A stretch of 64,000 nt of DNA, taken from NCBI RefSeq assembly GCF_029633965.1, contig NZ_CP091277.1, positions 558,001 through 622,000 on the forward strand, given 5' to 3'. This stretch comes from Methanogenium sp. S4BF (GTDB taxonomy: Archaea > Halobacteriota > Methanomicrobia > Methanomicrobiales > Methanomicrobiaceae). Positions 3,721 to 60,039 of the stretch are shown in pieces (position 1 is the stretch's first letter; the number at the start of each line of letters is the position of its first letter). The position numbers and the translations under genes are program-made. The notes beneath the pieces are model-generated. The model saw only the letters and a list, made by a program, of their open reading frames with translations, did no database searches and was not told the origin of the DNA.

Positions 3721-4633
3721 TGCATTCCGTCCGGTCGAAATGAAAGACGGAACATTTTTTCGCGAAATATTCACAAAATTTCCCCAGATACACAGTGAGA
3801 ACAATTTTACCACGATGATCGCATGGCAGGCATACTCGGATTACTCCTATGCCTATCTGGACGGTACATTACTGATATCGGCAGTCATTAACGAAAAACG
3901 CCTTTTTCACGCACCCATAGGGCCCCGGAACCCCGCTCTCCTGCGTGACCTCCTGCGCCTTGCGGCTGAGACGGGGGGGGATCGGCCGTTCTATGTCTTT
4001 GATCGTCCCACCCGCGACTGGATACTCCATGAACTCCCCCGTCTGCGCCTGCACACCGATCGGGACTTCTTTGATTATATCTATCTCACCGGCGATCTCG
4101 CCCATCTTCCTGGCAAACGCTATGTGGGGATTCGCCAGCATATCAATAAATTCAACCGGAAATGTTCGTTTACCGTTGAGACGTTCACCCGTGAAAATAT
4201 GCCTGAAGTCATCGATTTTCTCGATAAGTGGTGCGAATGGAAACATTGTGAGGAGAATGAAATCCTCGCCCATGAGAAGACCGCAGTCCTCTTCTGTATA
4301 GAGCATCTGGCAGAACTTGGTCTGGAAGGGCTTTTTATCCGTGTGGACGGGAAGATTTCTGCGCTCTCCGTCTATGAGGGGATGAATGATGACATGGCAC
4401 TTATCCACTTTGAGAAAGGGCTTCCTGACTGTGAGGGCAATTATAAGGTAATAAATCAGGAGACTGCACGGTATCTTGAGGAGCACCGGGGATATGCCTT
4501 CATCAACCGTGAATCAGACCTCGGTGTGCCCGGCCTCAGGGAGGCAAAACTCCGGTATTACCCACACCATTTTGCAGAAGTATGGTATGCAGAGAAGGCG
4601 GATATTCTGCATGCCCTTGAAGAGAACCCCTAA
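3707..4633 (+). CDS. DUF2156 protein (phosphatidylglycerol lysyltransferase C-terminal-like)
   Basis: About 308 residues starting MITLDAFRPVEMKDG. The ATG at 3707 is preferred over the in-frame ATG at 3692 because GGAG (3694-3697) is correctly spaced before it. The protein looks like the duplicated GNAT fold of DUF2156/MprF-C proteins, for example KRYVGIRQHINKFNRKCSF in the middle and the closing FINRESDLGVPGLREAKLRYYPHHF. Bacterial MprF C-terminal domains transfer aminoacyl groups from tRNA to lipids. The free-standing archaeal versions have no proven substrate. It overlaps the upstream GNAT gene. Confidence 0.8.
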   Translation: MITLDAFRPVEMKDGTFFREIFTKFPQIHSENNFTTMIAWQAYSDYSYAYLDGTLLISAVINEKRLFHAPIGPRNPALLRDLLRLAAETGGDRPFYVFDRPTRDWILHELPRLRLHTDRDFFDYIYLTGDLAHLPGKRYVGIRQHINKFNRKCSFTVETFTRENMPEVIDFLDKWCEWKHCEENEILAHEKTAVLFCIEHLAELGLEGLFIRVDGKISALSVYEGMNDDMALIHFEKGLPDCEGNYKVINQETARYLEEHRGYAFINRESDLGVPGLREAKLRYYPHHFAEVWYAEKADILHALEENP

Positions 4634-4971
4634 CTTCAGAGGGATATCATTCACCGCCTCTCTTCTGATTCAAACAGGTGACGGGCCTTTCGGATCATCC
4701 GTTCGTGATACTCTGTTTTTCCGGTCGCTGCTATGAGCAGGGGAGGAGGTACTTCCTCCATACAGCACTTCGACAGGTGATGATGACAGGAGAAGTGTCA
4801 GGGCATCCCTCCAGTTATGTCCGGTGAGTTTTGTATTGTGTTTGGTTTTTTTATTGTGTTTTTTGTTTGTTTTTGTTGTCAGCGGAAACATCGAAGACCC
4901 TCAGAACAAGGGCAATGAACGGGGCCGGGAATAAAGAAGAATCATTATGCAATACATCAGATGGTATACCA
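4634..4971. other. Intergenic region before dihydroorotase gene
   Basis: This stretch of about 340 bp has no convincing gene. Its right part (about 4826-4882) is a strongly T-rich tract that could end the DUF2156 transcript. An in-frame ATG at 4915 preceded by AAGGG is an alternative start for the downstream gene. Confidence 0.5.
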
Positions 4972-58046: not shown

Positions 58047-58700
58047 ATGAAAATGAAAAAAATTATTGTGGCATTGCTGGTTGCTGCTCTCTGTTTGGTA
58101 GCACCGGCTGTTGCACTTGATTGGGAGATGCTTCCATTCAGCACACAGGTGATGATTGACGGTACGTATCCTCCGGGTGCGGTATGTGGATCGTACTTTG
58201 ACGTGTACATTGGTGGAGACTCTGTAGGCCTTATTGCAGAGGAAAGCAATGGAATGGTCTATCCCGGATGGTGTGTCGACACAATGACCGATTCAATCAA
58301 GGATTATTGGTATTGTGCTGAACTTAGCAGCACCATCGGTGTAAGCGAAAAGTGGAACAAGATAAACTGGGTTATTAACAACAAGGGGGACGCAACATCC
58401 GGAGAGGTCCAGGCAGCTATCTGGATGATCCTTGGTCAGAAGGTCCCGGCCCGGTATGCCGATTGGGAGACCGCGGTTGCACTTCAATTAGTCAATGATG
58501 CAGACCCTTCGTTTATTCCTGAATGTGATATGATTGGGGCAGTTCTTGTTGTACCATGTCAAATGACCGGACAGGCGGCAGTCATTGAAGTTCCGATGCC
58601 ACCGTGCCCACCACCAGTCCCTGAATTCCCAACAATGATGATTCCGGTATTCCTTGTCGGGAGTGTAATGGTTGCAGCCAGTGTTCTGAAAAAGGAGTAA
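58047..58700 (+). CDS. PEF-CTERM surface protein with thioester-like Cys/Gln pair
   Basis: The 217-residue protein has a signal peptide (MKMKKIIVALLVAALCLVAPAVA) and a C-terminal PEF-CTERM signal: VPEFP (191-195), a hydrophobic helix (MMIPVFLVGSVMVAASVL) and KKE. An archaeosortase normally cuts such signals and attaches the protein to the surface. The middle has GWCVD (Cys76) and, 46 residues later, VQAAIW (Gln122). This is the spacing and context of Cys-Gln thioester domains (TQxAIW motif) of bacterial adhesins, so a covalent-binding adhesin is possible. A Pro-rich stretch precedes the sorting signal. GAGGT lies directly before the ATG. Confidence 0.85.
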   Translation: MKMKKIIVALLVAALCLVAPAVALDWEMLPFSTQVMIDGTYPPGAVCGSYFDVYIGGDSVGLIAEESNGMVYPGWCVDTMTDSIKDYWYCAELSSTIGVSEKWNKINWVINNKGDATSGEVQAAIWMILGQKVPARYADWETAVALQLVNDADPSFIPECDMIGAVLVVPCQMTGQAAVIEVPMPPCPPPVPEFPTMMIPVFLVGSVMVAASVLKKE

Positions 58701-59424
58701 TACCTGACGAACCCTATCCATTTTTTACCACAATTAATGAATGAATCATCTATGTTCACAGTTTTATCATAATTTTGGTCTCTCCGTTACAATGCCGGAG
58801 GATTGTATTATTATTGAATCGTTCCCGGGACGGTATATGGTGTGTCTGCCTTTCTTCCTGTGGATTCCCAAATGATATGGATGATGATCTGCTATCCTGG
58901 TGAAGTCATACCCCTTTAGCCGGGATGAAAAATCCCCGGAGATTCGGACTTTCTTTCTGTTCCGTTTGCATCCTTTGGGTCTGATATGATCTCATAATTA
59001 TTCTGGTTCCGGATGCTTGTTTTCAACGGGATCGTATCCACGGTCGTTTCACGTCCTCAATTAGTGCATTTCCTTCCCGCATCCCATTCCTGAAATGGAT
59101 TATTGATTTGGAGCTTTTCTAAAACCCTTCTAAATTCATGTCTCTCAGTTTGGAAAATCCAAATAATATGGTGGGAACTGTACATGGTTTTTTACAAAAC
59201 TGAATCCGGCTTACTCGAAAAAAAATGGCTATCCGGTCATGAAAATGCTGAACACAAGCGCCGGGCGTTTCATTTTATATCCAAAATGATACTTCTGTCA
59301 AGGGCTGGTTGGGGTTGGCATGTATGGTGCGTCCCTTGAGATAACGGGGTGTGTGTCCGGACCCTGTATGCAGAATTCATCAGATCAGTCCTGAATTGGA
59401 CTAATGTAGGGGTGAAAAAAGGGT
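58701..59424. other. Intergenic region between the two PEF-CTERM genes
   Basis: About 724 bp. The 78-codon open frame at 59103-59339 is Trp-rich and looks spurious. A short AGTCC/GGACT inverted repeat lies near 59384-59399. No gene is supported. Confidence 0.45.
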
Positions 59425-60039
59425 ATGAAACGAAGCCTGTGGATAATTCCCTTTATTTTGGCTATTGTGGGTGTAATGGCTGTATACGCCAGTGCAGGCC
59501 AGGGGTATACTATCACAGACATCCATTCTCAAATTGGTTCCGGGTGTGACCTGAATAAAATCCCTGATGACGGAATCTCAGTTATAAAATATCCGAGCGA
59601 CAAATCGACTGAAGCTCAGGTGGGGTTTTTTGTTCAGTGTTGCGGGGCAGATTGCCCTGCTATGTCTGTTTCCCATACTGGTCTGCAATGTTTAGGTGCA
59701 TCTGAAGATGCTTCGTGGAGCAGGCATGATGCAGATGTTGTATTTGAAAATGAATATGCAGCGCCATTCCAAGATGGTTTGGCAACAGGGGGAACTTCCG
59801 GGAGCATATATCATGGGGCCAATGTCAGTGCGCCGGGACGGGCAGTTCTTTTTGAAGATGACTCTATTCTCCCCTACTCTGCAATTCCTGCCCCGGAATT
59901 CCCAACTATTGCTGTGCCTGCAGGTCTTCTGGTTGGCATGATATACATTATATTCCTGCTGAAGGGCAAAGGACGAAAAGATCTCTCGTATCAGGAACGA
60001 GTGGATAAATCGCGAGTTAAGGAAGAGTTCACCCAATGA
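59425..60039 (+). CDS. PEF-CTERM surface protein with long cytoplasmic tail
   Basis: The 204-residue protein has a signal peptide (MKRSLWIIPFILAIVGVMAVYASA), a beta-rich Cys-containing body (CCGADC at about 72-77) and an APEFP motif (156-160) followed by a transmembrane helix (IAVPAGLLVGMIYIIFLL). Unlike usual PEF-CTERM proteins it continues for about 25 residues past the basic KGKGRK (DLSYQERVDKSRVKEEFTQ). No partner archaeosortase is visible in the window. GGGTGAAAAAAGGGT precedes the ATG and may serve as ribosome binding site. Confidence 0.83.
   Translation: MKRSLWIIPFILAIVGVMAVYASAGQGYTITDIHSQIGSGCDLNKIPDDGISVIKYPSDKSTEAQVGFFVQCCGADCPAMSVSHTGLQCLGASEDASWSRHDADVVFENEYAAPFQDGLATGGTSGSIYHGANVSAPGRAVLFEDDSILPYSAIPAPEFPTIAVPAGLLVGMIYIIFLLKGKGRKDLSYQERVDKSRVKEEFTQ

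Follow-up and report, generated by a model that had tools for sequence, protein, structure and literature searches.

A predicted class I-type thioester domain in a stalkless, PEFP-tailed surface protein of Methanogenium

Thioester domains (TEDs) have been described as occurring exclusively in Gram-positive bacteria (Walden et al., PMC4450167). The residues that form their bond lie in a [YFL]CΦζ motif and in a weak C-terminal ΦQζΦΦ motif (Walden et al. 2015, PMC4450167; Miller et al. 2018, PMC6194298), and in solved TEDs the bonding glutamine is located on the last strand (PMC4450167, PMC6194298). The glutamine and tryptophan of a third motif, TQxxΦW, are found on helix 2, where they touch the backbone of the cysteine and are dispensable for the bond (PMC4450167, PMC6194298). 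In TIEpLS20, the C68S substitution abolished the protein's function in conjugation.

An ATG open reading frame of Methanogenium sp. S4BF, at 58047..58700 (+ strand, stop codon included) of the 64,000-nt stretch of DNA that we analysed (the window), encodes a secreted TED-like surface protein of 217 amino acids. The genome is a single contig of 2.51 Mb at 99.8% completeness in which a genome-wide search found the gene in single copy, and homologues at 55-67% identity are present in Methanogenium and its relatives. We computed the fold, motif order, residue conservation and secretion and anchoring anatomy of the protein, together with the sorting machinery in the genome. As read from the sequence by eye, the protein begins with a predicted Sec signal peptide, MKMKKIIVALLVAALCLVAPAVA (58047..58115, +), which has a hydrophobic core and an AVA cleavage site and lacks a lipobox; residues 25-184 (58119..58598, +) form a class I-like thioester domain, assigned from AlphaFold models and PDB fold matches; and the C-terminal tail is PVPEFPTMMIPVFLVGSVMVAASVLKKE. 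Six cysteines are present in the mature protein in all.

The original prediction had combined an archaeal PEF-CTERM tail with a thioester between Cys76 and Gln122, and the sequence does contain the elements on which it drew: the open reading frame, Cys76 within GWCVD, Gln122 within EVQAAIW and the tail, along with a signal peptide. A loose pattern of cysteine, hydrophobic and hydrophilic residues followed by QxxΦW arises in 1.2% of shuffles of the protein, and a three-motif TED pattern including a late glutamine in 0.025%; the latter was matched by 1 of the 156 window ORFs of at least 100 aa, namely the TED-like protein alone, indicating that the motif set is beyond chance. An Rfam search around the gene returned no match, and a search for phage relatives of the protein found none.

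Predicted fold and relationship to TED families

AlphaFold modelled the mature domain from 30 diverse sequences with a pLDDT of 88.2 and a pTM of 0.85. To test whether distant rows had brought in the fold, we built a second model from six close relatives alone, which reached a pLDDT of 82.6 with the same element order. In both models this order is E-E-E(Cys)-E-H-H(VQAAIW)-H-H-E-E(Gln176), with Cys76 ending the third strand (strand C) and VQAAIW on the second helix, and it is the order of strands and helices described for class I TEDs by Miller et al. (PMC6194298). Foldseek searches against the PDB returned TED chains at all of ranks 1-17 for the first model (5A0G, 5A0D, 4C0Z, 2XI9 and 2XID) and at all of ranks 1-19 for the second, including SfbI (5A0L), with probabilities up to 1.00 and a best E of 9.9e-5, whereas the first non-TED match in the two models had an E of 0.19 or 0.32 and a probability of 0.06 or 0.04. 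The TED matches have TM-scores of about 0.5 and rmsd of 5-7 A, so the fold is shared but the loops differ widely and the match is not a close one. The model thus consists of a beta-barrel and a three-helix bundle in class I order, and its significant PDB matches are all TEDs. Fold, motif order and conservation support the reading of this region as a thioester domain, and this reactive domain type probably occurs in archaea too.

By sequence, the relationship to Pfam TEDs (PF08341) is transitive, running via relatives, in addition to the link by fold. Searched alone, the TED-like protein found nothing in Pfam, NCBIfam or the PDB sequences, with no match to PF08341 at E up to 10. PDB profile searches with two family profiles, A2 and A3, gave no TED and chance matches only (for example, ribosomal S7), and a cyanobacterial TED likewise found no TED in the PDB by sequence. 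Sixteen of 30 relatives do match PF08341 (best 1.1e-7). Relatives above its cut-off include one from a Methanomicrobiaceae bin (L075/L046, 22.4-22.7 bits), which the A2 profile joins at 1.2e-13, and the cyanobacterial L072; a cyanobacterial protein with two TEDs scores 56 bits. The Pfam TED profile thus misses the protein itself but recognises, above its cut-off, relatives that the family profile joins to it. Across the 232 genomes of the class, the PF08341 model finds 1 and the family-only A2 profile finds 17, showing that the Pfam TED model is nearly blind to this branch. Profile comparison with seven plasmid (pLS20-type) class II TEDs aligned the cysteine motif alone at a non-significant probability of 0.2, which is consistent with a class I-like affinity.

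Scanning named genomes with sequence patterns produced 28 loci from Methanogenium, Thermoplasmata, Bathyarchaeota, a Hodarchaeum MAG, Planctomycetes, Bacteriovorax, Bacteroidetes, Proteobacteria and cyanobacteria, many of them in MAGs, where the taxon assignment of single contigs may be wrong. A contig titled Deltaproteobacteria (L058) probably comes from a methanogen and was mis-binned, since its TED gene is Methanogenium-like, encodes a PEFP tail and is accompanied by the same neighbour. In Methanogenium cariaci, two additional TED copies (the second copy of L053 at about 4030-4660, and L057:2989-3680) are broken by frameshifts beside intact ones, which may reflect decay of the genes, switching between on and off states or errors in the draft sequence.

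Residue conservation and the bonding glutamine

Invariant columns in the 30-sequence alignment were Cys76, Asn107, Gln122, Trp126 and Gln176, with Cys76 the only invariant cysteine. We also aligned 56 distinct rows from Halobacteriota, other archaea, Planctomycetes, cyanobacteria and Bacteriovorax to the profile. Among rows covering the respective position, Cys76 (the predicted thioester cysteine in GWCVD at the end of the third strand; 58272..58274, +) was present in 54/54 and Gln176 (the predicted thioester-forming glutamine in TGQAAVIEV; 58572..58574, +) in 50/50, the latter count being slightly generous because two glutamines vie for the last column in a few bacterial rows. Gln122 and Trp126 of VQAAIW, the helix 2 equivalent of TQxxΦW (58407..58424, +), were found in 52/54; their conservation and that of Asn107 is partly by construction because these three residues were in the scan patterns, whereas Cys76 and Gln176 were not. 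Bacterial relatives have YC[IL]D at the cysteine motif. Asn107, in INWVINN on helix 1 (58365..58367, +), is nearly invariant (49/53 covering relatives) without a described role in TEDs. Several relatives have a single cysteine within the domain, which rules out that Cys76 is half of a conserved disulfide.

These data bear on which glutamine would bond with Cys76. Gln176, which was already invariant among the first seven relatives, occupies the position of the strand-Q glutamine of TEDs, directly before or on the last strand of the AlphaFold model, and by homology to solved TEDs it should be the thioester partner of Cys76; by the same homology, Gln122 is predicted to assist from helix 2 without taking part in the bond. 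The original prediction had instead placed the bond between Cys76 and Gln122 of VQAAIW. Both residues are kept together in 52 of the 54 covering relatives, as that pairing would lead one to expect, and the side chain of the helix-2 glutamine of TEDs does contact the cysteine backbone (PMC4450167, PMC6194298). However, characterised TEDs need neither the helix-2 glutamine nor the tryptophan for the bond, their bonding glutamine being on the last strand, and the late glutamine is present in every covering relative. One of the two exceptions at Gln122 and Trp126 is a frameshifted copy (L019), but the other (L042, 267 aa) is intact, has alanine at both helper positions and keeps the cysteine and the late glutamine in GWCLD and GTQPVVICV. 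A Cys76-Gln122 thioester is consequently very improbable. The presence of Gln176, which had been overlooked, indicates that the helper motif was mistaken for the bonding one, and the glutamine to mutate is corrected to Gln176.

Sorting tail and neighbouring gene

The C-terminus has the layout of an archaeosortase substrate, with a PVPEFP...VLKKE tail (58614..58697, +; matched by the tail profile) in which the motif is followed by a hydrophobic stretch and a basic end, KKE, as it is in relatives and in the neighbouring protein. The tail scored 12.9 bits against TIGR03024 (cut-off 23) and 13.2 bits against TIGR04296 (cut-off 25). An archaeal sorting tail is real, as originally proposed, but the PEF-CTERM label is not upheld at the NCBIfam cut-offs, and we treat the tail as a PEFP variant. 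Over the genome, the tail profile detected the TED-like gene and about 3-5 further tails (that of the neighbour, two clear ones and a few weak ones). A gene of the exosortase/archaeosortase family encoding 299 aa lies on the contig at about 647834-648733, 26 kb past the end of the window and directly downstream of a protein ending APEFPGIALSQ...; it scores 42 bits against TIGR04178 (cut-off 23) and 47.6 of 100 bits against the artC model. This archaeosortase-family enzyme presumably processes the TED-like protein.

Downstream of the TED gene lies a gene for a small PEFP-tailed surface protein (59425..60039, +; tail at 59887-59970 by the tail profile), an arrangement seen in five loci with a gap of 673-836 bp. 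The ends of this neighbour are conserved and its middle is highly variable. Upstream of it, a near-perfect palindrome, TCATTTTATATCCAAAATGATAC (59270..59292, +), with TCATTTT-n6-AAAATGA over a TATA-like core, sits in a block that is 80-88% conserved, and its exact copy occurs once in the genome. Judged by its sequence, the block looks like a regulated promoter. As speculation, the neighbour may be considered a candidate partner of the TED-like protein.

Proposed function and comparison with known systems

The protein is probably an archaeal TED of class I type, compact and anchored to the membrane without a stalk, with a predicted Cys76-Gln176 thioester that likely serves covalent attachment. 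In the mechanism that we propose, Sec would export the protein, and the archaeosortase-type PEFP tail would hold it at the external side of the membrane. Cys76 ends strand C and Gln176 belongs to the last strand; their side chains would condense spontaneously with loss of ammonia, the cysteine backbone being positioned by Gln122 and Trp126 of helix 2, and the resulting thioester would be buried where the beta-barrel meets the helix bundle. A matching nucleophile docked at the cleft, probably the amine of a lysine on a partner protein or cell surface, would attack the thioester, whereupon the acyl group of Gln176 would pass to the nucleophile as an isopeptide bond and Cys76 would be freed. The domain likely serves to link the methanogen surface covalently to another cell, matrix or envelope protein, in which case the protein would act as a covalent adhesin. 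That the thioester forms and reacts, what it targets and that it serves adhesion are what we infer for the archaeal TED.

A first alternative concerns the target. The thioester might act within the cell's own envelope, cross-linking to the S-layer or the PEFP-tailed neighbour instead of to foreign cells. The absence of a stalk, which places the domain directly before the membrane-proximal tail, speaks for this, since the domain would then lie under the S-layer or inside it and could act near the membrane, either on a partner reaching the surface or on the envelope of the cell itself; so does the conservation of a small PEFP-tailed protein next door in five loci. However, stalks of SdrD_B, DUF7507 or PKD domains, like those of fibrillar adhesins, occur in relatives from cyanobacteria, from putatively Methanosarcina-type archaea and from other archaea, and the neighbour, which has a promoter-like block to itself, is not clearly part of the same transcript. 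We regard action within the envelope as unlikely, if a serious competitor to attachment to other cells. Less likely still is a TED fold in which no thioester is made or used, leaving a domain that simply binds non-covalently or has a structural role. The five other cysteines of the mature protein make other oxidation states possible, and TED bonds are provable solely by mass spectrometry or crystallography, but Cys76 and Gln176 are strictly conserved in every covering relative, including those from very distant taxa, which argues for continued selection on the pair. Membership of the complement/alpha2-macroglobulin type of thioester protein can be ruled out by fold and motif: proteins with the CxEQ motif are predicted in Haloferax and Methanomicrobia (PMC8416519), but the TED-like protein has no CGEQ motif and no alpha/alpha-barrel or macroglobulin domains, and its fold matches bacterial TEDs only.

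If the archaeal TED branch proposed here is real, its combination with archaeosortase anchoring would extend covalent surface attachment to a second domain of life, and it would give a concrete and readily testable way into the questions of how methanogens keep hold of partners or construct their envelope. Archaea and several Gram-negative phyla may hold a large, unrecognised branch of reactive TEDs, displayed by archaeosortase in methanogens and constituting the first archaeal covalent adhesins, a broader reading that we advance tentatively and in which methanogen TEDs would form covalent links from the cell to its partners or to its own envelope. In the literature searched, whose coverage is incomplete, we came across no description of archaeal TEDs of this type, and automatic annotations could already be using the TED name for some relatives.

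Among known systems, the class I TEDs of Gram-positive TIE adhesins (CpTIE 5A0G, Cpa 4C0Z/2XI9, SfbI 5A0L; PF08341) are alike in fold and element order, in having the cysteine on strand C, a last-strand glutamine and QxxΦW on helix 2, and in placing an N-terminal domain behind a signal peptide with a sorting signal at the C-terminus. That signal is LPXTG in the TIE adhesins and a PEFP/archaeosortase tail, with no LPXTG, in the archaeal protein, which also lacks their isopeptide or ester stalk, its domain running straight into the tail. The motifs agree with small substitutions: GWCVD has the CΦζ of [YFL]CΦζ with W replacing Y/F/L, TGQAAVIEV fits ΦQζΦΦ except for G instead of Φ before Q, and VQAAIW has V for the T of TQxxΦW. 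Cysteine and glutamine are spaced 100 residues apart, compared to 129-153 in solved class I TEDs (PMC4450167), and the Pfam TED model does not find the archaeal protein. Class II TEDs (BaTIE, TIEpLS20) share the head fold and the logic of a cysteine and a late glutamine; in contrast to them, the archaeal model has neither room nor strands for a seven-stranded beta-sandwich insert before the bonding glutamine. Archaeal alpha2-macroglobulin/TEP-like proteins share the thioester logic of cysteine and glutamine, but are large multidomain proteins of unrelated fold with a contiguous CxEQ, unlike the window protein.

Giant cyanobacterial proteins (L072, L077 and L079) contain a TED, or in one case two TEDs, with many SdrD_B repeats, and so place TEDs in Gram-negative-type bacteria. 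Surface proteins of this TED-SdrD_B kind from putatively Methanosarcina-type archaea, Thermoplasmata and cyanobacteria (L097, L060, L072 and L079) have the same domain by profile, with the invariant cysteine, QxxΦW and late glutamine. They bear it, as TIE adhesins do, at the head of stalks of SdrD_B, DUF7507 (reported among archaeal families with predicted isopeptide bonds) or PKD domains and are 580 to >1,000 aa long, whereas the window protein is a bare TED followed by its tail.
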